A stretch of 64,000 nucleotides of DNA, from NCBI GenBank assembly GCA_012845835.1, contig JABAKD010000002.1, positions 5,640,106 through 5,704,105 on the forward strand, given 5' to 3'. The position numbers and the translations under genes are program-made. The notes beneath the pieces are model-generated. The model saw only the letters and a program-made list of their open reading frames with translations. It was not told where the DNA came from and ran no database searches. The DNA comes from Undaria pinnatifida (lineage: Eukaryota > Sar > Phaeophyceae > Laminariales > Alariaceae). Below, one piece after another: positions 29,840-63,642 of the stretch (the stretch's first letter is position 1; each line of letters starts with the position of its first letter).

Positions 29840-29919
29840 CGACCAGTCGAACGAAGATCAAATAAGCCCATTGTTTCCACATCCTTGCCGCTGACACCAT
29901 CGACCGCCTCTTCTTGGAC
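29840..29919 (-). CDS. Gene A exon VI (candidate)
   Basis: After acceptor catgctgcag an open frame in the right phase encodes VQEEAVDGVSGKDVETMGLF, then DLRSTGRR. The donor is ambiguous: ACTG|GTCGGC at about 29844, or GTCGG|GTACGC at about 29836. The acidic composition is compatible with a C-terminal tail. No family match was found. Confidence 0.3.
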
Positions 29920-30549
29920 CTGCAGCATGGGCGTGTCGTGAGGTGGGGAACATGTGCAAGCAAAGAGCACGGTGTATGTTGCCCGACGAAGCTATGGCAC
30001 CCCCTTCCCCCCCTTGCGAGCTTGTCTCCCGGCGTTTTAAAGGGTGTCTTTGTCTATGGTACTACGGACTGAGGGCATGGATGGCGACACTATTACGCTT
30101 CACCCGCCCCTCCCGCGCGCTCTAGGTAGTAACACAAAACATTACCCCAAGCTGTCGCGGCTAGCAACCCGTGTAGATCAAGCCCTGCTGTAGGTGAGGA
30201 ATGTTTCAACTTCCAATGAGTTGATATTGTTGTAGATTTTTTCGAGTCCTCCTGGCGCCCACAAGAAGTCAATCGAGATGGAACGTGGCGGACGCAATTG
30301 AACTGCTAATACCTGCACTTCCTACTCGAGTCAGGGGCCATACCACGATCAGACGTTGAAGGCCGTACAGCCTTTACTCGCTTATAGTACGAACGACCAG
30401 GTTTCTATACCGGGATGTCGCAAAAAAAATGAAGTACCTCGAGCTCATTGGTGTTTCTCGCAAGGAAGATACGGGGCTGGAAAAAAGACGCATCACTCTC
30501 TCGTTGACGCCCTATGATGTTTGCTTACGAAAAATCGCTAGAGCCTTAC

Positions 30550-30669
30550 CTCTTTCAGCTCGTGACTGATCAACATCCGTCCGACTCCACCACCCGAGCA
30601 CGAGCCGTGATCGCGGAACGACATCCGGCGAGCGGCATCAAGCGTCGCCATGGCGTTGTCGTTTTTCAG
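30550..30669 (-). CDS. Gene A exon V (probable)
   Basis: A 120-base open stretch (40 codons, phase 0 at both ends) runs from acceptor gcgcacag to donor GAAAGAG|GTAAGG. It encodes NAMATLDAARRMSFRDHG, then GGGVGRMLISHELKE. Phase agrees with exon IV and the donor is strong. I recognise no domain, and no counterpart was found in gene B, so this rests on splice signals and position. Confidence 0.55.
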
Positions 30670-31552
30670 CTGTGCGCCATGGGTCAAATCGTTGGAAGCG
30701 AGAGATCGCGATCTTTGAGTATCACTCACAACATACATACCCATTATGTGTTATCCCCATGCTGGGTTGTATTGTAAACACCTGGCAGTCCAGGGGATAG
30801 CGCGGATCGGAATCCCGGACGCCACCTTCCTAGAAAGGCCACAATGAAAAACACACCGGAGCGTTGGGATTGCTATACGACTCAGGAAAACGACTTTTTT
30901 TTTCCCACTTTTCTTCTCTCGGGTAGACGTATGTAGTAGTCTAACCCGCTCACCCTGACTGGGCTCTCGAGAACAGGAGTGTTGTGGTGGTCCAAAAAAA
31001 TTATTGTGCCCCCCCGTGGATATCATATTTCCTTCCCCTTCAACCATCGCGGTGGGGGAAACACGCACCAACTCCAACTAACGTGTTTCAAAACAAAGGG
31101 GGACGATGTTCGAACATGCCGTACCATAGACCTTTGCCAAGCACAATCACATAGTTGCATTACACTAGTTATTCATTCACGGTACGTACCTTGGAGGCCT
31201 GCAGAACTTGGTTATTTTGCTCCTCGTCGAGCCCTTTCGCCATCATGGCTTCTGCGGCCTGGTGGGAACAACCAAACAGGCGAGCAGCTACAGGTCACGC
31301 GGGGTACGTGATATCTTCGCCCATCGAAGAGAACCGGGCGCTTGCGGTGTTTCAGCAATGCTGGCAGTACGACAATGTCATATATGTGTTCAACTTGCGA
31401 TCAAAATTAGTGATTTCGTCGTGATTTATGCCACGCCGCAGGGAAATAAAGTACACGTAGGACAACAATGCTGGCGTACGTGGAAATATCGATGTATCCC
31501 ACACCGTGCGCGTTTGTGATGTCAGGAGCACATAGCACGCGAGGGAACTCAC

Positions 31553-31649
31553 CTTGGCGAGGGATGTGACTGATTGAGCGGCCCTAGATAATGTACGAGG
31601 GTCGATAGGCCTGCTAGCGCCCACCGTGCTGTTGTCGCTGGCCCGCCGC
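31553..31649 (-). CDS. Gene A exon IV: degenerate exonuclease motif III
   Basis: The 97-base exon runs from acceptor gtgatgcag to consensus donor GCCAAG|GTGAGT. It encodes ASRPIDPRTLSRAAQSVTSL, aligned with RPLTxxMLxYAAxDVxxL of DEDDy exonucleases. The motif III tyrosine is replaced by arginine and the aspartate by serine. The first base completes the split arginine codon of exon III. Length and phases equal B exon IV. Confidence 0.8.
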
Positions 31650-31998
31650 CTGCATCACGGGAAGAGGTGTGGGCATAACGAAGGTATCGGTTCCGTCACA
31701 CGTCAAGCAACATTGAAGCATACAACGGTAGGGACTTGTGCATTAAATGCTTGGGACAGCAGGGTTAGCACCTACATTTCTTGAGCTCGTCATTTGAGAC
31801 GTGTTCTACGATAGATGGTATACCATTTTTTGGCGCGGATATATTTCTGAAGCAGTTGTCAGAATGTCATTCAAATGTAATGAACGTGTTGAATACCCAT
31901 TTGAATCATTTTGGACCGCACATCTTGCAGTTGGTTAGACTGTATATTTTTAATTGCGTGTCGACTCAGCTACGAAGCCGGCTCATTGCACATTATCA

Positions 31999-32260
31999 GC
32001 AACATGCGAGTGCAAACATTATGAAAATGAAAATACACTCAGGCTGTGAGATGGCAGAATTCGTCAAAACTCATATTTTGGTGTGTGCTGCTCAGATCGC
32101 GCGTATTACTGGGGAAATGTCCTCACTAAGAAAATACGTCGGCGACTCCACTTAGAAATAGCTTGTGCCAGGGTCAACAGGGTGATGTTAATCAATCCGT
32201 GCACGGAAACTATAAAACCCGTTCTTGAGGGGGGCAAAACTCGACGGCTGTGGAATGAGC
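31999..32260 (+). repeat. H element left end
   Basis: ATGAAAATACACTCAGGCTG, GTCAACAGGGTGATGTTAAT and CGGAAACTATAAAACCCG match H. It lies in gene A intron 3, with an M1 end (TGTTCTACGATAG) just upstream at about 31802. Confidence 0.7.
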
Positions 32261-32414
32261 CGGTTCACCATTCAAATACTGTGTGCGAACGATTGTTGAA
32301 TACGAGGTAGTCTATACCGTAAACATCTACCGGAATGTCTGAGGAAACAAAACGCTATATATTTCTATTGTGCAGCAGATTATTGTGGGCGTATTCTTGT
32401 GACAGCTCTGGCAC

Positions 32415-32602
32415 CTGTGAGGGCCGTCGCTGCCCGAGTCATTTTCCTCCGAGAAGGCTGTCAAGGTGCAGTCAAGATCCATGTGGACGTCACCCAACAA
32501 AACCTCCATGGCGAGCTGCGTGTCGAAAAGGCTGTAAATCTTGAGAGCGGGGCCGAAGTGACGCCGCAGGGCGATGCCGCCGTTGTTGAAATCGTGCACC
32601 AC
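32415..32602 (-). CDS. Gene A exon III: exonuclease motif II
   Basis: The 188-base exon runs from acceptor gatgtag to donor CACAG|GTGCCA. It encodes VVHDFNNGGIALRRHFGPAL, then FDTQLAMEVL and an acidic, serine-rich tail. VxHDxRxDxxAL...FxTxxxxxFDTQxA is the hallmark of EXD1/Egalitarian exonuclease domains. Length and phase (0 in, 2 out) are identical to B exon III. Confidence 0.85.
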
Positions 32603-33574
32603 CTACATCCCCAGCCAGATATAGATAAGTCGTTGGTGACAAGCAGGCGTCGCCAACCCCGAGATACGCTAGGAAACGGACGAGGGAGGGCCACTACCGT
32701 GTCACAATAAACGACTGCAAAAAGCGCGAGTGGCCTACCGGGTTAGAACATAGACGACTGCAAATAGCGCCAGTGGTTGTATATCTCCTTTGAAAACGGC
32801 TTCGAGCTGTTTGGTTGGCGGAGCTCATGGCTACGGTAAAGAGATACGCCGTTTTATTTTCTGGAACCCCTCACTTGACTAGCTCTATACGCTTCTTTAC
32901 CGAAAAAAACGATTGTTGAGTAGGCCGAATAAATGCGAACGGACGACCAAACCCATGTCGGCCTATCTAAAAAAACGATGTAATATACAAACAAAAACTA
33001 GCGCAAAAAAAAAAAACGAAAACCCGACCATTTTGGGTTTAGGAGCCCATCAGATCATTCCAACTTAACGAAAAAGGCAGAAACGTGCTACGTTTATCGC
33101 AGCTCGTCCTCCATGGCGGTGCGCGCAGGAAAATGAAAAAAAAAACACACACACATACACACACAAGTACACGCTTTAAGACCTCTTCTTTTAAAGACTA
33201 TATAATGGTGGCCGCTAAACGTGACCCAACGGGCAAAAACGTGACCCGCTGGGAAAAACACGCCACGGATGACGTCGAATCAAACCAAAGCACAATGTCC
33301 TGCCGGCATCGGAAGCGATGCAGCATATCTCAACGGGCCAGATCCTGATCCTATGGAAGAAGTCAGTTTAGCTGTTATGCGATGTGTTTTCTTAGGAGTA
33401 GATATGCGCTAGCAAACCCAAACGGTTGTGTGCAAAACAAAGGTTTATATGTGCATAACGTTTTTTCTTGCTGTCTTGAGCATGAAAGCATAGCAGTCCC
33501 GTGTTCGTTAGCCCGGAAGACAAGACAAGCGCGTTGAAAAGGACCCACCACAGGAAATGTCCTCTGAACGTCAC

Positions 33575-33703
33575 CTTCACGGAACTCTCGTCCTCAAGGA
33601 GAGGGCCCAACTGCGCACGCAATAGAGTCCTGCCAGTTGTGGCCGCCTCGAGCGCCCCTACGTCGAATATTACAGCTTCCGCTGGAGACCAGCTTGCAGC
33701 TAT
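33575..33703 (-). CDS. Gene A exon II: exonuclease domain, central strands
   Basis: The 129-base exon (43 codons, phase 0 at both ends) runs from acceptor gtgtcag to donor GTGAAG|GTGACG. It encodes IAASWSPAEAVIFDVGALEA, then a leucine-rich helix. It corresponds to the Q(I/A)A...xxxFDIxxLG...LxxLLE section between motifs I and II of EXD1-like proteins. The length equals gene B exon II exactly. It lies 9.6 kb from exon I. Confidence 0.8.
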
Positions 33704-34053
33704 CTGACACACGGGGAAAAGGAATGACCGTACTCGCAAAGTTAAGCGCCATTCATGGTACAGGTCAGAAGCCAATTTTTTTTTTTTTTGTATTTCGACC
33801 ATATGTTCCGGGGCCAGTTGCCCTGCTGCCAGTAACGAGTGTTTGATAAGATACGAGTGAGTGCCGTCCTTCCTTCGTTTACCACCCGCCGAAGGATGAA
33901 AAGAAAAAAGAAGAAAAAAAAAAGCAGCAGCAGCAGCAGCAAGCAATTGTCTCGATTTATCTAATCACCCTAACAAGTACTTCGTATGTGATAAGCCCAC
34001 GGGATCCCCCACAGTATATCTGTGATACGCAGGGCACGACGCCTACTACAACA

Positions 34054-34303
34054 GACTGATTCTACGATAGCCCCCCCCTCAAACCAGCGATGGTCTTTAA
34101 CGAACGATTCATGGCTGCTCGACACAAGGAAGGATACAACTGAAAACGGGGTGTCCACATATATTCTTGTGTGCAAAGGCCTATCGATCGATGACGTCGG
34201 CGTGTCGAGGGACACCGTATTTCAGGAGATACGACCGGGAGCTGGTTTTGAAACCAGCGATTTCGTTAAAGAAAAATTGGGGGGGCTACCGTAGAACGAC
34301 TCA
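34054..34303 (+). mobile_element. M2 MITE, full-length
   Basis: Left end ACTGATTCTACGATAGCCCC and right end GGGGCTACCGTAGAACGACT are inverted. Internal landmarks are ATTCATGGCTGCTCGACA, GATGACGTCGGCGTG and GGGAGCTGGTTTTGAAACC. It lies in gene A intron 1. Confidence 0.82.
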
Positions 34304-34664
34304 ACAATATAGGTAGCACATTTCTGCTGAGTTGTTTGCTGAATGGTGGCGCTCCTTAGCAACATTGTTTTAGTCGCATACCAACTACAGAAGGCTCTCA
34401 CTCGATTTTGCTCATCGTGTGGAACTTTTGTTTTCCCCCCGAATGAGCTTTTGGAAGAGCCATTTTGACTATATATTGGAGCTCAGCTCCCTACGTCAGC
34501 GCTCCTTGCGCCTCTTCCTTCTTTTGCATGGGGTGGCCGCATTCAGAACGCGGAGCACAACGTATACGTGTCGTGGTGCAATTTTTCACGCCGATATTAG
34601 AGTCATGCCAGGTTACAGGTTCTGTCACCGTACCGCGTGAAACGTACGAGGAAGTTGTTATAAT

Positions 34665-35810
34665 AAAAGAAATATACTCCAGCGGTGAGATCGAAGACTT
34701 TGTCGAGGCTCATATTTGCAAGCTGTGTGATACTCCGATATATTATAAAAATTAAAATACACTCCAGCTGTGAGATCGAATATTTTGTCTAAACTCATCT
34801 TTGCAAGCTGTGTGTGATACTCCGATCGCGCGTATTACGGGTTTTGTGTCCTCATAAAGGATATAGGTCGGCGACTCCCCTTGCAACTACAGTGTAGCTA
34901 TCAGGGTCAACAGGGTGATGTTAGGCAGTCTGTGTGCGGAAACCGTACAACCCGTTTCTGAGGGGGACAAAATCTGACAGCTGTGGAAGGAAATGCATCA
35001 GTTTATCAAGTGAATCCTGTAAGTCGAATATCCGGTGATGGGAGGGCGGAGTTTTTAAGGACGTGGGGGCCTGATTTTGATCAAAAGGGGGGCGGGAGAG
35101 GGGGGAGGGGACGGGTGGGGCAGGTCTATTTGTGCGTGGAAACTCTGAATATTTCTTGTGGGGGAGCGGGGGGGATGTGGCGGGGGGGGGGCGGGGGCGG
35201 GGGGGGGGGGGGCTTCAGGTCGCATAGATGTATGGATTTGCTATACGCGTGGTGCTAGGTCTAGGCGATGGTGCGGGTGGTGGGGAAGGAGGGGGCGTTG
35301 GGGACGGGGGTGGGTGGGAAGTGCAGCAGCGGCATGGACGGCTCTGAAACGATACGGAGGCGATATCCAGGGCGTGGAAGTGTTTACTACTCTGGCGGAC
35401 TTCGATAGTAGGTGGGGCGTTTAAGCAAGAGGAAGCGAGGGAAAAGAAAAAAAAACAGGCGGGGGGGGGGGCGGGTGGGGAAGGGTTTTCAAGAGGTTTA
35501 GGTCACATATAATATTAAAATCAAGGATTTGGTCGACACTGATGTTCGCAACATTGTGTATGATCCTCCGATCGCGCGTATTAGTCATATATGTAGGGGC
35601 CTACTATACGCGCGGTGCTGGGTCTAGGCGATCGTGCGGGGTGTGGGGAAGGAGGGGGCGTTGGAGGGGACGAGGGGGGATGAATGAAAGCTACGTCATG
35701 GATGGCTAGAAAGATAATGACGCGATATCAATGGCCTATTAGTGTTTATTACTCTGGCCGATTTCGATTGTAAGTGGGGCGTTTGAACAAACTGGGCGGG
35801 GAACAATATA
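34665..35810 (+). repeat. H element, G-run rich
   Basis: It begins with a partial duplicate of the left end (34665-34745), then AAATACACTCCAGCTGTGAG and the same order of motifs and G tracts as other copies. It lacks the AT-rich tail. It lies in gene A intron 1; the transcript of A would carry the C-rich strand. Confidence 0.78.
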
Positions 35811-40644: not shown

Positions 40645-42535
40645 TCTGTTGACCCTGATAGCTACGCTGTACTTGCAAGGGGAGTCGCCGGCCTATATCC
40701 TTAATGAGGACACACAACCCATAATGCGTGCGATCGGAGTATCACACACAGCTTGCAAAGATGAATTTCGACAATATATTCGATCTCACAGCTGGAGTGT
40801 ATTATTACTTTTATGTTATATGCAGTATATTATAAAAATTATAATGCACTCCAGCTGTGAGATCGATTTCTTTTCTGTCGAAACTCATATTTGCAAGCTG
40901 TGTGATACTCCGATCGCGCGTATCACGGGTTGTGTGTCCTCATTAAGGATATAGGTCGGCGAGTCCCCTTAAGGCTTGCAACTACTGTGTAGCTATCAGG
41001 GTCAACAGGGTGATGTTAGGCAGTCTGTGTGCGGAAACCGTACAACCCGTTTCTGAGGGGGACAAAATATGACAGCTGTGGAAGGAAATGCATCAGTTTA
41101 TCAAGTGAATCCTGTAAGTCGAATATCCGGTGAGGGGAGGGCGGAGTGTTTAAGGACGTGGGGGCCTGATTGTGATCAAAAGGGGGGCAAGAGGGGGGGA
41201 GGGGGGGGAGGGAACGGGTGGTGCAGATCTTTTCGTGCGTGGAAACTAGTATTATTTCTTGTGGGGAAGGGGGGGGGGTGTGGCGGGGGACGCCGGGGGC
41301 GGGGGGGGAGGGCTTTAGGTCGCATAGATGTAGGGGTTTGCTATACGCGTGGTGCTAGGTGTAGGCGATGGTGCGGGTGGTGGGGAAGGAGGGGGCGTTG
41401 GGGGCGGGGGTGGGTGGGAATTGCAGCAGCGGCATGGACGGCTCTGAAACGATAACGAAGCGATATCTAGGCCGTGGAAGTGTTTATTCTATAGTATAGG
41501 TGGGGCGTTTAGGCAACAGGAATCGAGGGGAAAAAAAGGCGGGGGGAGGGGGGGGGGGGGGGGGGAAGGGTTATCAAGAGGTTTGGGTCACATAAAATAT
41601 ATAAATCAAGAATTTGACCGACACTGATGTTCGCAACATTGTAAGAGATCTTCCGATCGCGCGTATTGATCATATATGTAGGGGCTTGCTATACGCGCGG
41701 TGCTAGGTCTAGGCGATCGTGCGGGGTGTGGGGAAAGAGGGGGCGTTGGAGGGGGGGAGGGGGGATGAATGAAAGCTACGTCATGGATGGCTAGAAAGAT
41801 AATGACGTGATATCAATTGCTTAGAAGTGCTTATTACTCTGGCCGATTTCGATTGTAAGTGGGGCGTTTGAACGAACTGGGCGGGGAACAAAGGGGGGGG
41901 GAGGGGGGGGGGGGGGCGGGGCGGAGATGAGTTGGAGCTACGGCAAGGACGGCTAGATGGATAATGAGATGATATCAGCTGGCTGGTAGTGTTTACTACT
42001 CTGGCAGATTTTGATTTCAGGTGGTGCGTTTAAACAAGAGGAATCGGGGGGGGCGGGGAGGCGGCGAGCATTTCAATGTGTGCGCGGAAACTATAGACCC
42101 TTGAAGGAGACGAATCTGACGGTTGCAGCAAGAAGACACCCCTGTATATCACCCGCCTGGTAATGTTTATTTTCACTTTTTTTTTCCAGAAGGTTTGATG
42201 TCACATGCAGTATGCAACCCAGTTCTTGGGTGTAGTAAACAACGTGTTAAAAGCTTCATAATTTGTTATTGTACATGGATCGAAAAATAGAATATTTTAA
42301 TCGATAGGTACAGTCATGTAGATACCAATTATTCTCTGACATCGCTAATTTATGAAAGAGATGCATATTATTGCCAAATACAACAGGCGAGGTGATGTGG
42401 TCATGCAATGTCACCGCCATTGAGAACGACAGGGAGTGAGAACGACAGGGAGAGATGCGAATCGTTATTGTTTTGAAAAGAACGCTTCGTGTACACGCGC
42501 TCAATTACGTTACTTCGTTAGTCATACTTCGCTTG
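40645..42535. repeat. H element with inverted left ends
   Basis: From 40645 to 40805 the left end runs in reverse (CACACACAGCTTGCAAAGAT, CTCACAGCTGGAGTGTATTA). From 40838 it starts again forward and continues through G tracts to the TGTACATGGATCGAAAAATA tail. The two ends form an inverted pair with a short spacer. Confidence 0.78.
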
Positions 42536-43265: not shown

Positions 43266-43307
43266 TTGCTCACGCTGAATATACTGCTAATAAATTGTTA
43301 CCCCCAC

Positions 43308-43787
43308 CTTTACGAGAGAGATTTTTGCTTCCTCGGAGCCCATGCCGCTCCCTTCAAGCTCGACCGCAACAGAGCGTCCCTCGCAGATGCGCTTCAACGA
43401 TAAGCTCACCGTATCCCCATCGGAATCTTCGGGAGCAAAGTCGATAAGCGCCTGCGTGCAGCTCTGCACGCTGTCTATCAAATGGTACGACACCGACGGT
43501 TCGTCCAGACATGATGATGATGCCTTCGAAGAGTTCCCCCACCTCTCCCAAAGCACCAGCTCATGCGTTTCCGAGTTGATGCGCAGCGCCCCCTCAAGAA
43601 TGCCTTCGTCTTCCAAGTCTCGGAGCTTGCGCCCACCCAGGTTAAGATTTTTATGGTACGTCGCCTGATATCTCCTGGCAACGTCGGCGAGAGGCAAGGG
43701 CCCATGGTATCGTACGACGTCGACGAGCTCTCCCACGTATTCCCTGCCAGAGCGATACCTGCCCATCCTGCTCGAAAACTGCGGCAT
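43308..43787 (-). CDS. Gene A exon I: LOTUS-like domain and start of exonuclease domain
   Basis: The exon encodes 160 residues and ends at donor GTAAAG|GTGGGG. REYVGELVDVVRYHGPLPLA, followed by a tyrosine and a GGRKLRDLEDEG helix, fits the LOTUS pattern. SYHLIDSVQSC and SVAVELEGSGMG fit the first strands of an EXD1-type exonuclease (normal motif VDLEG; here E-L-E). I chose the ATG at 43787 because it lines up with the start of gene B. The frame stays open upstream to an ATG at 44063, which would add 92 residues with no counterpart in B. This exon and B exon I share YHxIDSVQSC and DGDxVSLSLxRICEGRxVAV. Confidence 0.82.
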
Positions 43788-46259
43788 AGTAGTGATTGTA
43801 GTATTTTGATGCGCCTTCAAGGAGCGAGTATACACGAGGAAAGGAGAAGGAACTGGGGGAGAAAGGGTTGTGGTGTTCGATGCATGTTTTTTTATCGCGT
43901 GCGCCACGTTCGCCTCCGTCCGGCCGAATAGGGACACGACTGATTCGAATAAACAACATTTGTTCCACGAGTTGGAAACCTGTTGTATTTGTTCATTCGA
44001 ACGAGTTATAATGCACTGCACATCTTTCCCTTGGGGTTTCTCGAAACTGCTCTCATTCATCATCGTGCACAGAACAGGACCGTCCGTACCATAGCCTAGC
44101 CATTGGTATCGACTTCATTCTGTACGGAATATGTCTTTGGAATACGCTTAAACGTAGACCTGGGTACATGAGTAAGATTTTGTGTTAATAAATAGTACTA
44201 AAATAATGTGTTGCCTATATTTCCGGACCCAGGGTGGTCTCAACTAACTGTGCGCATGTCCCCAAGGATCCGTACGTCCGAGCGGGCAAGACCAAATACG
44301 TACAATTCATATCATACCCGAAAAAATTACATTATTGTACAAAAAAAAGAAATAATACACTCCAGCTATGAGATCGAAGATTATCATTTCGTCGAAACTC
44401 GTGTAGACTATGTGCAAGCTGTGTGTGATACTCTGATCGCGCGTATTGCTGGGTTTGTGTCCTCATTGAGGATATAGGTCGGCGACTCCCCTTGATATAA
44501 CATTGCATTAATTGTATTGCATCACTTATCATGCAGAAACAAGTGTTATGTTCGAGCTTCTCGAAGGTTCTCACTTTCCCGCAGCGTGTAGAGCCCTACA
44601 CGTGTACATACGGCTTTTTCAACGGTTCTCAATGCCCACGGCGCACTGCAACTATATATTATAAAAAAATGAAATATAGTCTATTAGATCTATGTATAGT
44701 TTCCGCGCACAGACTGCCTAACATCACCCTGTTGACCCTGATAGCTACACTGCAATGTAGTTTCAAGGGGAGTCACCGACCTATATCTTTAGATAAGGAC
44801 ACACAACCCGTAATACGCGCGATCGGAGTATCGCACACAGCTTGCAAAGATGAGTTTCGACAAAATATTCGATCTCACAGCTGGAGTGTATTTCAATTTT
44901 TATAATATAGAACTAGACTATATGTCATAGGGTAAAATAAAAATATTTGATTAGCCCCGGAATTCAAGTTTTTCCCGCAATGTATCTGTGTATTGAAAAA
45001 GTACACAAGGGCTCTAAGTACATGGATGCCGGGATATTGATATTGTGATATATGCCGTCAATCATGCGTCGGGTAGGGGGCAGGGCGGCACTTCGACGTG
45101 TCCGAAAATCAATACATAATGGAGAGGGAGAAACCCGGAGCCTCGAAATTTTAGCCGACGAAGGTATATGGAGTGGGTTCCACGTGGGCGGATGGGTTGG
45201 GGTCAAAATGACTTGGAGTATGGGTAGCAACCCCGCGATCATTGTGCTTTCCCGACCAACCCAAGAAGCCAGAGAAAAACATTGTGTGGGAGAAGTACTA
45301 TGGCCATTCCACCCACCCGCCCGACTTGGCATAAAATAGCAGAACAGTTTCTCTGTTTACACCTTTTTCGGATAGGCGCCGCGCTGAGGGCGCACTCAGA
45401 GCGGAGTTTATCCCGGGTAACACCCCCCCACTGGTGCATGAGGCCTCGTCTCTTCCGGCATTTACTTCAAATGATCGGTGTAGGCGCACAAGGATACAAC
45501 AGGCACGATAGCCGTTTATAAGTGCGAGGCGTCGTGTTTGGCGTTCGACCCGCCGACGACGTGGAAGCCACAAGTGCAATAATACGGCAACTCGACAGCA
45601 GTGCGTAGTAGTCCATTTTGCATTTTTCCGGTCGACCTTTTTTTTTTCTTCGCGCTTTACCTATCTATGGGGAAAGGAGTTAAATAACACAACAACAACT
45701 TCAAACGACAACCGTTCGTAGATCGTATGGCGCGTGCGGAGTAATCAGGCTTTGAGTTCTTCGTGAGCTTGGGTACTACTACTGTGTTACTAGTATAAAA
45801 CCCGAAAATTTGCTGTGTAAGGAGTGTCGGAAATAAATGCGTGATGCCCCACGGCTTTATCTACGTAGTCGTACGGCGATATAGTACCGATTAATGTACC
45901 TGGCCATGAGAAATGCCGTTGAAAAGCATTACGAATCAAGGAGCGTATCACCTCTGGAACAACAATATTGGACTATCGGACGCAGTGGGCTGGCCCATCC
46001 CACCTCGCGCACCGTACCCCCCCCCGAACGACATTTACTTGCCCCCCCTCCCTGTTCTCCGTGCTGGAGCATTGCATACAAAGCCGCTGCTGCGATCAAG
46101 GTGATACCGTTACGCCCACAGCATCTCCGCTTTTCACCTGCACGTACGGGAGGTTGGGCCTTCTGAGCAGCTCAATACTACGACACTGCTGCTGCTGTAG
46201 TCTACTCTTAGATACAAAAGCAGTAGACCACACACTCTGAAAAACATAGATCAAGAAGG
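43788..46259. promoter_or_regulatory. Divergent intergenic region between genes A and B
   Basis: Both genes are transcribed outward from this 2.5 kb stretch. It holds two H-element ends in inverted orientation (about 44340-44490 and 44690-44905). From about 44906 to 46259 I see no repeat family and no gene. No TATA box could be assigned with confidence. Confidence 0.4.
44340..44905. repeat. Two H left ends in inverted orientation
   Basis: A forward end is at 44350-44490 (ATACACTCCAGCTATGAGAT) and a longer reverse end at 44690-44905 (ending CTCACAGCTGGAGTGTATTT). About 200 bases lie between. This sits in the A/B intergenic region. Confidence 0.75.
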
Positions 46260-46844
46260 ATGAGCGACACCTACGAGGAAATACCGGCGGATGAGGAGGA
46301 ACCTTGTTGGCGCACACTCTCCAGGAATATCGTCGCTGCCGTGAGAACTCACGACGGACCCTTGCCCTTTAACGAAATCGGCGCGGTATACCAGTCAATC
46401 TGTGGACAACCCTTTAACTTGCGCGGCTATAAGCTTGCGGACTGCCTGCGACAAGAGAGTCAGTTGACAGGCGCCCTGCTGGTAAACTGGAAAACGAAAA
46501 CGCTGAGTCTCAAGAAGAAGAGACGTGGAGGCGCGCCGAAGGCGTTGGCTGCACCGCCGAGGGCGCCTACCGCACCGGCCACGAACCCCAGACGTGGCGC
46601 AACAGCACCATCGTCTGCAACGGAGCCGCCGGTGCAGTCTCCTGAAGATGTCATTCTGACGTCGTCGTACCATGTGATTGATAGCGTTCAGAGCTGCATG
46701 CTAGCGCTGATCGCCATATCTCCGGATGATGACGGAGATGCGGTAAGTCTGTCCCTGGCGCGGATTTGCGAGGGGCGTGTGGTCGCCGTCCAGCTGGAAG
46801 GGAGGGAGCTGGGCACCGAAGAAGGGAGACTGTCCCTCGCCAAG
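46260..46844 (+). CDS. Gene B exon I: LOTUS-like domain, linker, start of exonuclease domain
   Basis: The ATG follows agaagg, and the exon runs 195 codons to donor GCCAAG|GTGGGT. NIVAAVRTHDGPLPFNEIGA, then YQSICGQPFNLRGYKLADCL, fits the LOTUS/OST-HTH fold and aligns with gene A. A basic KKKRRGG patch begins an Ala/Pro/Thr linker that A lacks. The exonuclease part has VVAVQLEGRELG, where the usual first catalytic aspartate is glutamine. The same donor position and phase as A exon I support common descent. Without splicing the frame would run on to a TAG at 46896. Confidence 0.85.
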
Positions 46845-48574
46845 GTGGGTCGGTATAACAGCGTTAAGAAACAATATGTGCATATAGACGTCATCTAGCG
46901 TGGGTGTGTCCTCTTATAGCTAAAATATCTATCCGTTGGGCTATTTCAGTCACGAGATGCAGCAGTTAATGAATGATAACTGTTGATACTGCTGTATACG
47001 ATACAGGATCGAGGCCCCGGTGTCCATCTACAATGGTAGCGGTGGCACTTTTTGCACTCTGCCGAGTTACGCCTCAAGGAGAGCTGTGCCATCCGTTAGC
47101 GGCATCATGGTGTTTGCGCCCCTGCTGCGCGATCGTCGTACGGTGTAGACGGACCATAGTTCGTAGGCGCGGCATGAACCCTTATATGCCGATATCCCTT
47201 AACATTCTCGGACCCTGTTTACGTTCCTAGCAGCCTCTATGGCGATTTGCAAGCCGAAGACGGTGTGGTGGCCCGTTGTACAAAGGTTTGGGCCCGTTGT
47301 TGAGTGAATCGTGCCCACAGGAAGGGAGGAGGTCCCTCTCAACTGGACGAAACGGTCCGAAGAAGTTTCTGTACTGAAGGCCGTTGATACGTAGGACCCG
47401 TCGTACTGTATTAGAGTATACGCGTGCTCGCCATCTTCTTGACCACATTTCCAGTGTGCTCGTAGTACCTCGTACCTGTGGGTATTACCGGGCACGTAAA
47501 CGTGTTTGAGAGCACCTCGCGTGACAAGCCGAAAAAACACCCTGAGCTACACGTTGTAAATACGTAGTGGGCAACATGCAGGTCTTAGTAGGGGCGGGAG
47601 ACCCCGGTTTACCCGCTTTCAACTTCCGAGCGGTCTTATCCTGTGGACACGACAAAAACGGAATACGAACTGTATTACGAGGGGTCCCCATTTTCCTGAT
47701 GGCGAGGCGGCGACCTTATTAGACGTATAGCGGTGTTCGCGATGGCATGACATGATGACGGTGCTGGCACCACTGTGTCGTCAGAAACAGTGCTCAAGAC
47801 CAGACGGTAACGCCCCTGGTCCTGACTCAGGGCCATTCGAAGCCCAACAGGAGTGCTGTCGCCGACGTTGGTTGTATGGCATCCTCGACGAGGAGTGCTG
47901 TCGCCGACGTTGGTTGTATGGCATCCTCGACGGTGTTGCTAGAGCTGTCACATGTGGCTGCACATGTTGTGTTTTATATTTTTTGTTTTTTCCTTTACTT
48001 TCATATATTCTATTTTTCTTTCTACACACGTACTGCCGTCGACGACAAATATCACAGTACTCCGAGGAGGGGATGCGTGTTTGGTCGGTGCTGGGCAGCG
48101 TGCCCGTCATGTGTTCCGGTGCCATTATTAGTGGCTCGCTGACTAGGCTCAAAGATAATTTTGCATTGTTTCCCTAAATGGAATGCTGAAAGGCAGACAT
48201 AACAGGGCTGGGCAGGGAGGGTACTGAGATGAGGGGCGTCCTGTTTGTCCCATGATCGTCACGTACATCATCGCCCATCTATGGTGGCCTTGACGTGAGT
48301 GTGACATCTAATGACATCTAGTATTCTCACGCGGTTTCACCTACACCATGACATGACATGGTTTCACGTCGAATCTATAAACTATCCTTCTGCGTAGAGC
48401 ACTCCATTACATTCTGTCAATAATAATAATAGTCGTTAGTGCTGAATTGCAGATTTTTTGTTTTTCGCCTGAGTGCTCGTTGCGGTTAGTTCGCATGACC
48501 AAATCACCTTCTTGTGTTTGTAGTGTGCGTCTCTGTCGCGTGGTTTATGACCATAAGGCTCGTCTTTACGTACA
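46845..48574. other. Gene B intron 1, left part
   Basis: Contains a 113-codon minus-strand open frame (47199-47540) of unknown nature and the 42-base tandem duplication. No repeat family recognised. Confidence 0.45.
47848..47931. repeat. Tandem duplication of 42 bases
   Basis: GAGTGCTGTCGCCGACGTTG and the following bases to CATCCTCGAC occur twice in direct succession. The copies are almost identical, so the event is recent. It lies in gene B intron 1. Confidence 0.88.
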
Positions 48575-50015
48575 TTATAAAAATAAAATTACGTGAGGTC
48601 GAAGATTTCGTCGAAACTCATATTTCCAAGCTGTGTGTGATACTCCGATCGCGCGTATTGCTGGGTGTGTGTCCTTATTAAGAATATAGGTCGGGGACTC
48701 CTCTTGCAACTATCTACGGTGTAGCTTGTACCAGAGTCAACAGAGTGATGATGATCCATCTGTGCGCGGAAATTATTAAACCCGTTGCTGGGGGGGGGGG
48801 ATATGACAGCTGCGGTAGGAAATGCATCAGTTTATCAAGTGTATCCTGTAAGTCGTATAACCGGTGAGGGGAGGGCGGAGATTTTAAGGGCGTGGGAGCC
48901 GGGGTTTGAACAAGAGGGAGCGGGGGTGGGGGGGGGGGGGGGGGCAACTCAATCTGTGCACGGACACTATGAATCCCTTAAGGGGACAAATCTGACGGTT
49001 GTGGGAGGAATGCATCAGTTCATCATGTATATCCTGTAAGTCGTACAGCCCGTGAGGGGAGGGCGGAGTGTCCGAAGGCGGGGGGTATGAATTGGAGCTA
49101 CGGCATCGATGGCTGGAAAGGTAATGAAGTGATATCAACTGTCTCGTACTTATTATTACTGGCAGACTTTGTTTTTTTCGGTGGGGCGGCGGAAGAGAAC
49201 AAACGAGGGGGGGGGGGGGGGGTCAACCCTATTACGTCGTATGAATATATACCTGTGGGAATACGTGCTAGGTGTAGGCGATGGTGCGGGTGGTGGGGAA
49301 GGAGAGGGCGGGTGGAGGGGCGGAAATAATTGAATTGAAGCTACGGCATGTTGGATAGGTAGTGGCGTGATGATATTATCTGCCTGGTAGTGTTAACTAT
49401 TCCAGCAGATTTGATTTTAGAGGGGGTGGCGGGGGAGGGGGGGGGGGGGGGGGGGGGCTGTTTTTTGCGTGTGTGTCAGGGGGGGGCGGGGACCACGGCT
49501 TTTCAGGAATCTCCCGTACATTCGAACAACCAGGCCTGGTTATTTATAAGGATGACCTTTGGTTTGTTTGTGTTTTTTCCCTGGGGTATTCCCCACCTCC
49601 AGAGTGACTGGAGCCTGTCCTGTGACCACGGACTCTTATGCGAGTTAATGTGAGAAAAACAACACTATGAGCACAGGACAGCCATTTGGAACAATCATGT
49701 AGAACGGTGGTATACAATGTGTTCTAGCTTCGTGGTTTGTTATTTTACACGGATCGCAAGGCAGAACATTCCAATCGACAGGTGCAATCACGCAGTATTA
49801 CCATGATTTTTCACCGTGCCGGTGTGGGGCTCTGAGGTTGCTAAATACATACCGCAAATACAGAAAATGAGGTGATGTGGTCATGCAACAATGTCACCAC
49901 CATTGAACACGAGGGGGAGAAGTGCAAATCGGGAACGCTTGATGTGCCCGCGCTTAGTTACGTTGCTTCGTTAGGCATATGCTACTTCAATGGGCAGAGG
50001 TTGGGAGGCGATCAT
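48575..50015 (+). repeat. H element, G-run rich, in gene B intron 1
   Basis: TATTTCCAAGCTGTGTGTGA, GTCAACAGAGTGATGATG, poly-G tracts, and the AT-rich tail with GATCGCAAGGCAGAACATTC and GGTGATGTGGTCATGC match H. Here the G-rich strand is the sense strand of gene B. Confidence 0.76.
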
Positions 50016-50700: not shown

Positions 50701-50829
50701 ATTGGCGGAAGCTGGTCTAACTCCCAGGCAGTAATATTCGACATAACGGTGCTCGAGAAGACGACGATTGGAAAAGCTCTCCTGTGTGAGCAGCTGTGTA
50801 CGCTTCTCGGAGACAGGAGATCGACGAAG
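50701..50829 (+). CDS. Gene B exon II: exonuclease domain, central strands
   Basis: The 129-base exon runs from acceptor tgcgtcacag to donor ACGAAG|GTGATT. It encodes IGGSWSNSQAVIFDITVLEK, then a leucine-rich helix ending DRRSTK. It aligns residue for residue with A exon II (I-x-x-SW-S-x-x-x-AVIFD). Phase 0 at both ends. Confidence 0.82.
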
Positions 50830-53405: not shown

Positions 53406-53534
53406 CATGGCGACTCTAGTTCACTGTAGTTGTTGACTTCGACAGATTCGTCCGTTTAAGAAGCGCCCCCGAAGGGGGTGAACGTATCGGCCGACGCAAT
53501 TCTTCACCCAAACGCTGATTTCCCGAATTCGCAG

Positions 53535-53722
53535 GTTGTACACGACTTTACCAACGGCGCCAAGGCCTTGCGACGACATTTCGGCACCGATCTCAGGATT
53601 GAGCGGATCCTGGACACTCAACTCGCCTTCGAGGCGGTACTCGGCGATAGTAGCGCCGACCTTGACTCGGTGCTGTTCGTCTTCGCGCTAGGCCGTAAGT
53701 CGGTCGACGCCAACGCTTACAG
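53535..53722 (+). CDS. Gene B exon III: exonuclease motif II
   Basis: The 188-base exon runs from acceptor aattcgcag to donor TTACAG|GTGCGT. It encodes VVHDFTNGAKALRRHFGTDL, then LDTQLAFEAVLGDSSADLDS. The EXD1-type HD...DTQ signature is complete. Phase 0 in and 2 out, as in A exon III. Confidence 0.87.
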
Positions 53723-53734
53723 GTGCGTATATGT

Positions 53735-53985
53735 GGTATGCTACGACAGAGATAGCGCTTTTTTTATGAAGTAGTCGCGGATTGACAGGGCCCCTTAACC
53801 CAAATTCGTTGGAAATTGGCGAAACCAAAAATCGTTATTTTCGTTGTGAGCCTAGGCCATGAGATTGTTCAACCTATAGCAACTTTTTTTTTCCTCCAAA
53901 ATCGGTTTTTTGGGAGACGTCTTAAGCGCCCAAAATGAGGCACCTCAAACAAAAAAAGATGTGCACCTCTATTGTAGCACGCGTC
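53735..53985 (-). mobile_element. M1 MITE, inverted, just past gene B exon III
   Basis: Ends GTATGCTACGACAGAG and ACCTCTATTGTAGCACGCG bound the copy. It starts only 12 bases after the exon III donor, so its left inverted repeat borders the splice site. Confidence 0.85.
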
Positions 53986-55749: not shown

Positions 55750-55846
55750 GCCACGGCTCTGCCACGACATTACGAAGGACGAGCGCAGCCCCATCAGCCC
55801 TCGTGACTTGCGTAGTGCCGGAAGCGCAGTCGCATCACTCGCCAAG
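55750..55846 (+). CDS. Gene B exon IV: degenerate exonuclease motif III
   Basis: The 97-base exon runs from acceptor cgtgatgcag to donor GCCAAG|GTGAAC. It encodes ERSPISPRDLRSAGSAVASL. Compared with RPLTxxxLxYAAxDV, the tyrosine and aspartate are serine and alanine. Alignment with A exon IV and identical length and phases make the call secure, despite the loss of motif residues. Confidence 0.8.
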
Positions 55847-57063: not shown

Positions 57064-57195
57064 GGTATATTATAAAAAATGAAAATACAGTCCAGCTGTG
57101 AGATCGAAGATTTCGTCGAAACTCATCTTTGCAAGCTGTGTGTGATACTCCGATCGTGCGCATTACGAGTTGTGTGTCCTCATTAAGGATATAGG
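57064..57195 (+). repeat. H element left-end fragment
   Basis: ATGAAAATACAGTCCAGCTG through CATTAAGGATATAGGTGGGG matches the first 130 bases of H. Confidence 0.72.
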
Positions 57196-57289
57196 TGGGG
57201 GTATATATCCCAGGTCCAGAGCAAGCTGCCTCCCCTTACACCCTTGACGCAGCATTCTACGTACGGTAATGAGCGTACCATTTTTTTTA

Positions 57290-58498: not shown

Positions 58499-58772
58499 CC
58501 ACGTGCTACGATCTAGAAGTTTTCTCGCTGTTTTCCCGAGGATGTGTCCTTCTTAACCCAAAAACCGAATCGGAGAAAAACAAAACTGCCTTTAATATGA
58601 CACCTGGCACCGGATGAAAAATCCTATGGCCATTGTGTACACAGCGAGAATCATGCACAATAAAAAATACATGGGGCGTATCTCCGACGATTTGGGGTTA
58701 AGGAGCGCCGTCATCCGGAAACCATTTCAGACTAAAAGTGCTACTACTACTACCTCCATCGGAGCACGCCTC
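58499..58772 (+). mobile_element. M1 MITE
   Basis: Ends CCACGTGCTACGATCTAGAAG and CCTCCATCGGAGCACGCC enclose forward landmarks CCGACGATTTGGGGTTAAGG and CGGAAACCATTTCAGAC. Confidence 0.82.
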
Positions 58773-59261
58773 TTCATAGCTCGTCGCTTCGGGGGCTCTA
58801 CACCATTCGTTGGTACCTCACGCGGTAACGTGTTTGGGGTACATTGAGCATGAATCCCGCTGAGACCGAAACCACGGCCTGGAGGCACTAAAAAAAAGCA
58901 GATTATTCTTGCGAGACAATAGGTAAGATTCCGATAATTTTGGGTAGAGGCAGCGCGCCGTCCGTCAAATTTATTCAGGAAAAATTCTGACCAAAAAAAC
59001 GTGCAAGAATCTTGTCGCAGTGCACGCGTCCTAGATACACAATATAGTCGTAAAAACAATAAACTAGTGAGTTTTCTGCTCGTACGAATACATGTCTCCG
59101 GTTGGATAGACCTGTACGCCATAGGATTGAATAATATGGAACTTAGGCCTCTACTACCCGGTATACGTTCGGTGGTATACTGCATGCCACATGGGAATGA
59201 CGATCGAGTGCATTGCACTTTCATTGCTGCCCCGTTGTGGGCTTGTTGGCGGGGTATAGAC

Positions 59262-59530
59262 CCAGGCTACGGTACCATAAGGGTCCCCTTTTTGGGCCTT
59301 TAATTTCAGTGGTCACTCGCGCGAGTAACCCCTTTGTTCCTTTGCGATCTTACGTTTTCTTCGTGTTGTGTATTGACGAGATCAATCCGCAAGACAAAGT
59401 TAATCTAAGCTGCGCCAAAACAACTGCCCAAACCACTTTCATCCGCGAGGTGCAGAGTCACTCGTGCGACTGGCTCAAACACACAACCAGCAAACATGGG
59501 GGTATGATACTACAATAATACCGTAGTCTT
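59262..59530 (+). mobile_element. P-family MITE
   Basis: GGCTACGGTACCATAAGGGT at the left and ATAATACCGTAGTC at the right are the ends. TCACTCGCGCGAGTAACCCC and GAGTCACTCGTGCGACTGG lie inside. Confidence 0.78.
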
Positions 59531-59659
59531 CGTCTATATAACGGAGAGCTCCCTGGACTCATCAGGAGCCATAATCCACAAACGAAAAGACGGCCGGCGA
59601 TAACACACGACTACGGTAGAAGAGGGAATACCCTACGTTTGACCACCGGGTTTGAGCCA

Positions 59660-59929
59660 CTCGTCGTTCTACGGTAGCCCCGCCAACTTTCCTTTAACGA
59701 AATCGCCGGTTTCAAAACCAGCGCTCTACCGGTCGTATATCTTCTTAAATACGTTGTCCCTCGACAACGACACCCTCCCCGACGTCGTCGATCAGTAAAA
59801 AACCTTGAACACAAGAAACTATGTGGATTCTATTTTTTCCCATAGTATCCTTCCTTGTGTCGAGCAACCATGAAACGTTCGTTAAAGACAATAGCTGTTT
59901 TTTGGGGGTGGCTATCGTAGAAACAGTCA
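59660..59929 (-). mobile_element. M2 MITE, inverted
   Basis: CTCGTCGTTCTACGGTAGCC and GGTGGCTATCGTAGAAACAG are the ends. Reverse landmarks CGCCGGTTTCAAAACC and CCATGAAACGTTCGTTAAAG are present. Confidence 0.8.
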
Positions 59930-60239
59930 AGAGTGACTCTGTATCATCATCCCGGACGAAAATACTTTAGGCGGTGCTTTTTGGCGCAGCGCGTATCTTA
60001 CCATTCCGTTGCGGAGTCGCATCGCAAAGTTGAGAACAGCGTACCGAATACTAAGACCGCAAAGGGAACGGGAGGGTCACTCGCGCGAGTGACCCAGGAG
60101 GGCCACTCCAAAAAAAAAACTCAAAAGAGACCCCCCCATCGTATCATTGATCGTGAACAATCGCACGGCCTACACCGTAAAGGCGCACCAAGCATATTCT
60201 GAGGCGAGGGTCCTCTCTTTAAGGAGATCTTTTCTGCCT

Positions 60240-60605
60240 TCTTCTGAGGAAAAAACTGATATTGAGTGGGCTGAAAGGGCAACCCGATGAACACACACCA
60301 CCCGATGGTCTATAGGTATGTACATCGAAAATAAAATCACATTTTTTTGCGGAAAAAGAATGACATTAATTCCGACGGCTTTTGGGTGAAGAAGCCCCCA
60401 CGCGTGCTACGATAGAGGTATACCTTTTCTTGGCGAAAATGGTTTTTGAAGGACGGAGCCCATTAACCCAAAATCGTCGAAAATGGGCCAGTTTTTTCAT
60501 TTTGATTCTCGTCAACGAAATTCCGATGGTTTTGGGTTAAGGAGCCTTGTCTTTCAGAAAATATTTCAGCCGAAAAATACCACCTCCAATTGTAGCAAGA
60601 ATCAG
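60240..60605. mobile_element. M1 fold-back derivative plus truncated copy
   Basis: At 60399 a TIR CACGCGTGCTACGATAGAGG opens an inverted half (CATTAACCCAAAATCGTCG). Near 60510 this switches to a forward half (ATTCCGATGGTTTTGGGTTA), ending CCTCCAATTGTAGC. The two halves are both the right part of M1, head to head. A truncated forward M1 fragment precedes it (60240-60398). Confidence 0.7.
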
Positions 60606-60713
60606 TGGATTTTTTTTTAGTTCATCGTCAGCCGAAAAGCACTGCAATAGAATATCAGGATTTCCGCGGATCATGACCAAGCCCGCGGGTCGGGTTCTGA
60701 GGTTTTCTTAGGA

Positions 60714-60810
60714 CTAATTCTACGACCCCCCCCCCCCCCCCCAAAAAAAAAAACAGCGATTTTATATTACGACGAATATTTCATGTCGGCTCAACACGAA
60801 GCATAGATCT
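60714..60810 (+). mobile_element. M2 MITE, 5' fragment
   Basis: ACTAATTCTACGACCCCC, a long C run, an A run and ATATTTCATGTCGGCTCAAC match the first third of M2. Confidence 0.6.
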
Positions 60811-60834
60811 TCATATATATATTTGTCTTGACTC

Positions 60835-61450
60835 GGGTGGGGGGAATGTTGCGACGGTGGAATGATATATACCCCCATTTTCCCCACCCGGTTTGAGGCA
60901 TTTCATACTCTCATTTTCATCACCGAATTTGAGGCATTCCACACCCCCATTTTCACCACCGTGTTTGAGGCATTTCATACCCCCATTTTCACCACCGGTT
61001 TGAGGCATTTTCATACCCCCATTTTCACCACCGGTTTTGAGTCATTTCACACTCTATTTTCACCACCCGGTTTGAGGCATTTCATACCCCCATTTTCACC
61101 ACCGGGTTTTGAGGCGTTTCATACCTCCATTTTCACCACCGGGCTTTGAGGCATTTCATACCTCCATTTTCACCACCCGGTTTGAGGCATTTCATATCCC
61201 CATTTCCACCACCGGTTTTGAGGCATTTCACCCCTCGCACGTGTGACTCTGTAGCTTGCTGACAAAAAACACTGTGCAGACAATTGTTTGGCGAAGTGCA
61301 CAGCTTACCATTTTATTGTGGATGATGTCCCAAGATCAACACGGCACGAAAGGTTAAAAGACCGGAAACGAACAGGAGAGTAACTCGCGCGCTAGTGACC
61401 CCAAGCCACTGGGAAAGAACACACACACAACTGACCTCCATACCGTAGCC
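60835..61450 (-). mobile_element. P-family MITE with an internal minisatellite
   Basis: The left part has GGTGGGGGGAATGTTGCGAC, like the copy at 54427. The right part has CTCGCACGTGTGACTC, AACTCGCGCGCTAGTGACCC and CATACCGTAGCCAAGGCC. The minisatellite at 60887-61228 separates them, doubling the element's length. Confidence 0.75.
60887..61228. repeat. Minisatellite, about 38-base unit, nine copies
   Basis: Units follow TTTGAGGCATTTCATACCCC then CATTTTCACCACCGG with minor variation. The units are contiguous, so it is a tandem repeat inside a P element. Confidence 0.88.
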
Positions 61451-61476
61451 AAGGCCTTGGACTTTTGCAGCAAAGT

Positions 61477-61600
61477 ACGATGGAGCGATGACGCCGGGGT
61501 GACAAGGGGCACCACCGCATTTCAGGAGATACGGTAGGGAGCTGGTTTCAAAACCGGCGACATCGATACAGGAATGATGTGGGGACTACCATAAGACGAC
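61477..61600 (+). mobile_element. M2 MITE, 3' fragment
   Basis: GATGACGCCGGGGTGACAAG, GGGAGCTGGTTTCAAAACCG and a degraded GGGGACTACCATAAGACGAC end are seen. Confidence 0.65.
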
Positions 61601-62062
61601 ACTTCGGATCGATTCAGGTCTCGGGTCAGGAAGTTTTCGATATACCATCGGTCGAGTTGGGTCGGGAGTCAGAACGTTTTCAAGTATGACTCGTCAGGCC
61701 GGGTCAACCTGGCTCGATTCGACCCGCGATAAGTGGCCGGACCCGTGACCAAGCACTGAAAAAATGTCCTCAGAGTCACGAGCTTCAGCATCGGTGACTT
61801 TCATAAAGATCGTCATCAGATGCCGTAGCACGCACGATATATTGCCGGGGGTGTGGCGAGAGTAGTTTGCTGCCCGCAGCCCTGTCATTATACCAGCGTG
61901 GCACTCTCTTCGCACAGTGCTGCGATTCAATGAGGATAGTTATGAGGGATCGAACCGACCAAGGTCGAGGCAGAGGGGTCACTTTTTTGCGGCCTTTTTT
62001 CTTTTATCGACTCACAAAACCGCGCACGCGAGGGGGTTCTGCACCAATAACTTTATCAACTT

Positions 62063-62400
62063 TGACGCATGCTACGATGATAGAGGTAGCATTTTTTTTC
62101 GCTATTTTTTTTGTGTCTGAATGGCGGGCTCCTTAACACAAATTCGTCGGAAATGGACCACTTTGTTTTGCATGATTCTCGTTGTGTACCTCTAGGCCGT
62201 GTAACACAAATTCGTCGGAAATGGACCACTTTGTTTTGCATGATTCTCAATGTGTACCTCTAGGCCGTGTGATTTTTTCATCCGGGATCATAGCAGTTTC
62301 ATTTTCTCTCCAAATCAGTTTTTGGGAGAGGTATTAAGCTCCTAAATTCTGCAACCTCAGAAAAAAAAACGTGGTTCCCACCTCTATCGTAGGGTGCGTC
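62063..62400 (-). mobile_element. M1 MITE, inverted, with internal 69-bp tandem duplication
   Basis: Ends GACGCATGCTACGATGATAG and CCTCTATCGTAGGGTGCG bound the copy. TAACACAAATTCGTCGGAAA recurs at 62133 and 62202, so a 69-base segment is doubled. Confidence 0.85.
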
Positions 62401-62444
62401 TTTTGACCAACTTCACGGTCGTGGGGGGTACCCCCATCTTCGCC

Positions 62445-62690
62445 GCCTGGCCTTCACCAGTGGCGCGAGTTACTCTGCACCTCACTGACAATATCCCGTT
62501 AGGCAGCTCTTGTTCGGCGCGGCATATGCAGCTAACCGTTCCACTGGGGGTTTATATCGAAACATTAAGGCAGCAGGATAGCCTATGCTGTTGGCAAGAA
62601 GGAGGGGGGTCACTTGCGCGAGTGACCCGGAGCACCCGCTGCAAAGAAAAAAAGACCGCAAAAGGGACCCCTCTAACCGTAGCATTGGCC
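62445..62690 (-). mobile_element. P-family MITE
   Basis: GTGGCGCGAGTTACTCTGC, TCACTTGCGCGAGTGACCCG and terminal CCCTCTAACCGTAGC are in the order expected of an inverted copy. Confidence 0.65.
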
Positions 62691-62795
62691 TTTTATGCGC
62701 TCGTTGCGCGCGCCGACCTCATGAGGCTGTGATTTTCAGTTTCCCGGGAAGCCTCGCCATGGAATTCTTTGTTTTCTGCTGACCAAAGCTACACG

Positions 62796-63070
62796 GTAGG
62801 GGGGTGGGTTCAATTACAAGGGACCTTTTTTTGCAGCGGCTTGGGGTCACTCGCGCGAGTGACCCCCCCTACCTGTTCTTTGCGGTCATAGGCTTTCGTG
62901 CTGTTTTGGTGTTTTGTTACATGAATCCTTGATGGGATGGTTAGCTACGTTACGCCCAACTACCCACCTAATAACGCGCTTTGGTCAGTGAGACCTGTAC
63001 AGAGTCACTCGTGCGACTGCTGAACACCAACCAGGTAGTGAAGAAGGGGGGTACCCCCTACCGTAGCCTT
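62796..63070 (+). mobile_element. P-family MITE, best preserved copy
   Basis: Left end CTACACGGTAGGGGGGTGGG and right end CCCCCTACCGTAGCCTTGC are inverted. Inside are the perfect palindrome TCACTCGCGCGAGTGA and the partial GAGTCACTCGTGCGACT. About 275 bases, no coding capacity. Confidence 0.85.
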
Positions 63071-63119
63071 GCTCTGCTGGTCCCGTCAAAACATGATTCG
63101 TCGGTTTTCGAACGAAATG

Positions 63120-63345
63120 CCATATAGCCATCCGACGGTCGGAGTGCAGCACAGATTCTAAGAATTTTCTGAGCTCCTAACATGAAGAGTGTTATAGGGC
63201 TTAGTTTGGGTAAGCTATTGGTGAACTTTTTGCAAGTCGGCCAAACGGACTAATACCCCACTTACACCGGGCACCTTAACAAAGAGCTCAATATATCACC
63301 CGAAAAACCACTTCGAAGGCATTCGTCCGCGCAACCCGACCAATT
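63120..63345 (+). repeat. C-family repeat interrupted by an S element
   Basis: AGCCATCCGACGGTCGGAGT and GAGCTCCTAACATGAAGAG start the element. S sequence (about 63188-63283) interrupts it, and GAGCTCAATATATCACCCGA resumes with ATTCGTCCGCGCAACCCGAC. Confidence 0.7.
63188..63283 (-). repeat. S element, solo direct-repeat unit
   Basis: GGGCTTAGTTTGGGTAAGC through CGGACTAATACCCCAC matches the inverted S repeat. It sits inside a C element. Confidence 0.65.
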
Positions 63346-63573
63346 TACAGGTTTTGGTATTGATCACGGGTTCTCATTTAATTGTCTGTGTTGTAGACTG
63401 TGTTCCCCCGAAATGAACACAATCTCACACCCATGCGTGGTCTTTTCTACGGCCTGGAAACCCTTTGGGCACGACCGTCTTTCGATGTGGAAAGGGCGAA
63501 TAGTGCGTAGATTTACAATTTGACAACGCTACTTGCACGCGCGCGTATGTATATTATTATTCCACCCCAACAG

Positions 63574-63642
63574 GCCGGGGAAACCCTAATGAAGGAAGCG
63601 CTGGGCAAAGAGCAGCAGGAGGAGGTCTTGAAGGCCTCGAAG
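63574..63642 (+). CDS. Possible later exon of gene B
   Basis: A 69-base open stretch (23 codons, phase 0) lies between acceptor tccaccccaacag and donor TCGAAG|GTAGAG. It encodes GETLMKEALGKEQQEEVLKA. Phase agrees with exon IV, but 7.7 kb separates them and there is no counterpart in gene A. It could belong to another gene. Confidence 0.35.

Follow-up and report, generated by a model that had tools for sequence, protein, structure and literature searches.

The 1,004 aa of the Drosophila protein Egalitarian (Egl) comprise three LOTUS-like 'Egl domains' and, after them, a 3'-5' exonuclease-homology domain; ED1 binds BicD and a dynein-light-chain site is present (PMC13186709). According to the account of its RNA-bound architecture published in 2026, two LOTUS-like domains, the exonuclease-homology domain and an adjacent helical domain present four surfaces around bent RNA stem-loops, and the putative catalytic residues lie about 15 angstroms away from the RNA and are dispensable (PMC13186709). 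The Egl N-terminal region is described from arthropods, nematodes, annelids, molluscs and flatworms and not clearly from deuterostomes, and the planarian exonuclease-like region is 16.9% identical to that of fly Egl, its homology being left open there (PMC12579938). Here we describe three related proteins of the brown alga Undaria pinnatifida, A, B and C, whose predicted layout resembles that of Egl. Gene B and exons I–V of gene A lie in a stretch of 64,000 nucleotides (C26:5640106–5704105, hereafter the window, with positions counted from its first letter), and the genome searched comprised 511,146,479 bases in 68 contigs. Among other animal proteins, EXD1 has an exonuclease-homology domain that probably acts without catalysis and an Sm-like N-terminal domain, and we know of no LOTUS domain in it.

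Each algal protein appears to be composed of a LOTUS-like winged helix, a variable linker, a divergent EXD1/Egalitarian-type exonuclease-homology domain and a C-terminal block, and we find it moderately probable that this assembly serves as a compact RNA-binding adaptor. This is the best reading because the same types of parts stand in the same order as in Egl and the active site is visibly altered. The exonuclease fold would no longer degrade RNA; instead, fold, LOTUS domain and C-terminal block would jointly provide an RNA-binding platform. Such a platform might pick structured transcripts and pass them to a partner in the manner of Egl.

The relation of the exonuclease-homology domain to Egl emerged from profile searches. 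Compared with all PDB sequences, a profile of the three proteins gave Drosophila Egl as top match (E 2.5e-7 with the final gene models, 3e-7 with earlier ones), in alignments that take in a linker of biased composition, and the exonuclease part alone retrieved two Egl sequences (E 7.7e-6 and 4.8e-5). Up to E 10, the three PDB profile searches listed no other nuclease, and Egl was the sole significant PDB relative of A, B and C. In Pfam scans, the DEDD exonuclease family PF01612 (DNA_pol_A_exo1, cut-off 23.6 bits) recognised B at 25.4 bits (E 1.4e-5); A (21.1 bits) and C (17.2 bits) fell short of the cut-off but are homologous to B. An NCBIfam scan yielded a single weak exonuclease/polymerase match (E 0.001; 17.5 bits, where the cut-off is 640). 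Pfam scans and early PDB searches used the first gene models, in which the matched stretches sit in exons unchanged since; with the final models the PDB search was rerun, and Pfam for the C-terminal block only. Egl SLDCEG aligns with VQLEG in A, VELEG in B and VQLEG in C, so that none of the three copies keeps the first metal-binding Asp, its place being taken by Q, E and Q, respectively. None of the proteins shows the full set of four catalytic acids (D-x-E, D, D), and loss of exonuclease activity is likely from these residues.

Ahead of the exonuclease part lie about 100 residues in B, 135 in A and 225 in C, about 85 of which form a single LOTUS-like domain. Modelled by AF2, this domain of B is predicted to be a winged helix of the LOTUS type, and comparison by VIA-align showed that the model best matches LOTUS domains, which made up all ten of the best matches and included those of TDRD7, TDRD5, Tejas and Oskar. 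The C-terminal block, about 100 well-conserved residues, takes the position of the tetrahelical exonuclease-adjacent domain (XAD) of Egl. Pfam recognised no family in the block in any of the three copies, nor did NCBIfam; the PDB profile search with the final models detected no sequence match between block and XAD, its alignment ending ahead of the block.

At the level of the genes, A and B are confirmed, as judged from the DNA, as a head-to-head pair with start codons at 43787 (-) for B and 46260 (+) for A, 2.5 kb apart and transcribed outward. A spans 46260 to 65968, with its final two exons past the window in L001, and B runs from 43787 down to 8142. In the final models each has seven exons, with GT-AG at every internal border and equal phase at all junctions; conservation alone suggests how the exons join in A, B and C. 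An earlier reading made from the sequence only had proposed two outward-facing genes whose exons II–IV measure 129/188/97 nt in equal phase, which the final models and 207/412 identical residues bear out. Its span of 29840..63642 was right in so far as 63642 ends exon V of A; A continues to 65968, 29840 lies in an exon that neither A nor C shares, and B ends at 8142. Nor are the genes 'twins', since three full copies exist, with C at C26:5866493–5906714 (+). The exons of A and B are as follows.

46260..46844, + strand: gene A exon I, 585 nt, with start codon, LOTUS-like domain (aa ~15-85), linker and exonuclease-homology start VVAVQLEG
50701..50829, + strand: gene A exon II, 129 nt, exonuclease-homology domain; identity to its counterpart in B 0.65 (flanks 0.47/0.32)
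53535..53722, + strand: gene A exon III, 188 nt, exonuclease motif II KVVHDF ... DTQLAFEA
55750..55846, + strand: gene A exon IV, 97 nt
63574..63642, + strand: gene A exon V, 69 nt
64823-64969, + strand: gene A exon VI, 147 nt, past the window, in L001
65807-65968, + strand: gene A exon VII, 162 nt, with stop, past the window, in L001
43308..43787, - strand: gene B exon I, 480 nt, with start codon, LOTUS-like domain (aa ~14-80) and exonuclease-homology start VAVELEG
33575..33703, - strand: gene B exon II, 129 nt
32415..32602, - strand: gene B exon III, 188 nt
31553..31649, - strand: gene B exon IV, 97 nt
31190..31258, - strand: gene B exon V, 69 nt
30550..30669, - strand: gene B exon VI, 120 nt, first part of the conserved C-terminal block, GSC.GGGVGR..ISHELKE
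8142..8381, - strand: gene B exon VII, 240 nt with stop, second part of the block, QRAG.P.FD..I..KRG...W.II.DV..AVDAL; 22 kb downstream of exon VI

The last exon of A, which matches the window at 8229–8384 (-) with 58% identity (E 3.1e-7), led to its conserved counterpart in B. This B exon is 62% identical to the last exon of C over 65 aa, and its start is surer than its 3' end at the stop. Three exons of the first B model (30829–30782, 30476–30438 and 29919–29791), without counterpart in A or C, were rejected, the conserved last exon being 8381–8142; similarly, the first-model end of C, a read-through past exon VI, gave way to the conserved last exon in the final model. When the reading frames of the window were compared all against all, two pairs among the best 100 rows, mostly repeats, contained exons of A and B: 43290–44114 (-) with 46227–46895 (+), 40% identical over 175 aa, and 32330–32602 (-) with 53460–53771 (+), 52% over 64 aa.

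Gene C, with exons of 810/129/188/94/69/120/210 nt, was found by own-genome searches both with B and with A. Among the best candidates scored in these searches there was no complete copy beyond A, B and C; the search with B also gave a weak match on C57 that has two stops (E 0.33). The spliced proteins of A and C share 190/427 and those of B and C 189/412 aligned residues. A synonymous divergence (dS) of 1.0–1.6 among the three indicates that the copies are old, and the ratio of nonsynonymous to synonymous divergence (dN/dS) is 0.40 for A-B, 0.38 for A-C and 0.29 for B-C, and the upper ends of the bootstrap intervals are 0.52, 0.50 and 0.38. In ten comparisons of equal-length exons (II–V), identity was 0.56–0.65 against 0.20–0.47 in the 60-base flanks, an excess far above chance. 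A, B and C are thereby shown to be an old gene family under purifying selection.

Several observations weigh against the adaptor reading. The curated cut-off of the OST-HTH/LOTUS family PF12872 is 23.8 bits; scanned as isolated domains, A (20.4 bits, E 4.7e-4) and C (14.4 bits, E 0.035) stay below it, whole-protein scores sink to 17.3 bits (E 0.0044) and 11.7 bits (E 0.25), and the N-terminal domain of B, also scanned alone, has no Pfam match. A LOTUS profile run against PDB sequences retrieved three chains (best E 0.8), none of them a LOTUS protein; genome-wide, the PF12872 profile gave no matches, and neither did the controls. The five models of B range in confidence from 73.7 to 44.2. The model of A is of low confidence (pLDDT 64.6) and has no Foldseek match at E up to 0.001; its top structural match is the bacterial DNA-binding domain Rok, and in VIA-align, where rows differing by Z < 1 count as tied, 13 rows of other proteins rank above Egl. 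The checks proposed along with the sequence-only reading, a profile search for OST-HTH and DNA_pol_A_exo1 and a structure prediction, came out in favour for the exonuclease family and the fold of B, but not for the OST-HTH profile or the model of A. In the exonuclease part, the Pfam match stops at model position 111-122 of 173, short of the third catalytic motif, which is therefore unrecognised rather than proved lost; the best candidate by eye, RPIDPRTLSRAAQSV in B, has no Asp at the expected place. Finally, the BicD profile PF09730 had no match in the alga's own genome, although 0/14 controls matched either.

Decayed or artefactual genes, that is, pseudogenes or exons joined by chance, would fit introns of up to about 22 kb and copies that are merely 45-50% identical. 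We nevertheless hold this account to be very improbable indeed: in all three copies the seven exons stay in frame, agree in phase, have GT-AG borders and are mostly equal in length, dN/dS lies well below 1, and third-position GC is 0.66–0.67 (first models) against 0.46–0.50 in 4-kb steps through the window. An ordinary winged helix unrelated to LOTUS, its likeness to the Egl layout being convergence, also seems unlikely to us, given that no Pfam family other than OST-HTH was reported for the N-terminal part of either A or C up to E 10 (filters remove most matches above ~0.1) and that LOTUS domains fill the ten best structural rows of B. A, B and C might instead degrade RNA as active 3'-5' exoribonucleases, guided to particular RNAs by the LOTUS domain. 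The D-x-E Glu and the motif-II Asp (KVVHDF) are indeed invariant in all three copies, and Glu at the first position in B is a conservative change. With Gln at that position in A and C, a third motif beyond profile recognition and a best solved relative, Egl, that works without catalysis (PMC13186709), this alternative appears quite improbable.

We likewise give little credence to a factor for small-RNA or transposon silencing, in which LOTUS would recruit a Vasa/DDX4-type helicase and the exonuclease-like domain would bind precursor RNA, comparable to EXD1–TDRD12 and TDRD5/7 in piRNA work. The resemblance of the modelled B domain to the LOTUS domains of TDRD7, TDRD5, Tejas and Oskar agrees with such a role, and EXD1 is described as a partner of TDRD12 in animal piRNA biogenesis (PMC5481186). 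However, Pfam scans found zero Tudor domain matches in A, B and C. Vasa-binding extended LOTUS domains carry a helix after the beta-hairpin; this helix is absent from the models of A and B, which stop at that point and are of low confidence there. Nothing in the analysis ties A, B or C to the germline or the piRNA pathway, the setting that the sequence-only reading had named for LOTUS and EXD1/Egalitarian folds in animals.

The RNA-binding adaptor reading draws on the comparison with Egl. In Egl, in Egalitarian-like proteins such as planarian egal-1 and in the algal proteins, a LOTUS-like winged helix precedes a 3'-5' exonuclease-homology domain, and a conserved block follows. In contrast to Egl, the algal proteins have one LOTUS-like domain rather than three, 440-539 aa rather than 1,004, E/Q-x-E in place of the intact D-x-E, and no detected match to its XAD. 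A, B and C are not members of the Egalitarian family, since the feature of three LOTUS domains fails; by analogy they nonetheless likely work like Egl. Oskar, TDRD5/7, Tejas and MARF1 share the winged-helix fold modelled at the N terminus of the algal proteins, but their partner domains are unlike. The proposal that LOTUS-like and EXD1/Egalitarian-type domains share one protein, duplicated head to head, is supported by profiles and models, and a role in RNA handling is probable by analogy with Egl. Such a fusion had been thought undescribed, with Egl cited for the exonuclease fold alone; yet Egl, the best PDB match, joins both domains (PMC13186709). What appears to be new is the compact single-LOTUS form in an alga. 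A 2010 survey of OST-HTH domains, as far as its account was available, lists stramenopile fusions to Tudor, WW, MORN and ubiquitin-system domains and does not name an exonuclease partner there (PMC2848206). Among the open-access papers listed in our searches, judged by title and the opening of the abstract, none describes a LOTUS–exonuclease protein from outside animals, and no locus related to A, B and C was confirmed among viral contigs (38 pattern matches) or prokaryote genome contigs (109 pattern matches).

Elsewhere in the genome there are 20 PF01612 matches, and none of the frames compared resembled A, B or C significantly, the best score of 4.7 bits (E 0.024) being at chance level. One dispersed repeat, which measures at least 3.3 kb and occurs in nine copies of 89-97% identity (L029, L030, L031, L033, L034, L036, L037, L040 and L043, on contigs C20, C21, C24, C26, C28, C32, C33 and C36), carries a WRN-like 3'-5' exonuclease. 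In five of the nine copies the frame around the PF01612 match runs unbroken for 276-319 aa, and the four frames inspected (L031, L033, L037, L043) keep a DIEWE motif; the repeat may be a mobile element that bears an exonuclease gene. Between A and C, a copia-type gag/protease-like remnant with zinc-knuckle-like and DSGAS-like strings was seen by eye at L001:5200-7700 (C26:5709200-5711700). Within the window, a dispersed repeat family marked by G-rich tracts and by a recurring GTCGCCGACC-like module (34738-35750, 40646-42050, 44358-44909, 48570-49320 and 57075-57199) occupies introns of both genes and the space between them, and intron IV of A holds a tandem array of ~36-base units at 60856-61231. 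Besides the last exon of B, no gene was recognised in window 1-28000, where none of 8 frames scanned, out of 40 of at least 110 aa, had a Pfam match at E 0.1. One of the two frames scanned outside that region, 47731-48177, had a weak glycosyltransferase-like Pfam match below cut-off (E 0.044).

The sequences give a hint that a LOTUS–pseudo-exonuclease design exists outside animals. We may tentatively speculate, as a possibility rather than an expectation, that A, B and C represent an Egalitarian-like RNA adaptor in which one LOTUS domain per chain, possibly in paralogue dimers and perhaps without BicD, picks out structured mRNAs so that they can be placed or controlled, polarity of the egg or spore being one example. 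The LOTUS and exonuclease-homology module would then predate the split of animals and stramenopiles or have arisen twice. If this is true, the module would be older or more reusable than thought, given that it occurs in a lineage with independently evolved multicellularity, and the algal proteins would offer a simpler system for the role of an exonuclease-homology domain in RNA recognition after catalysis is lost.

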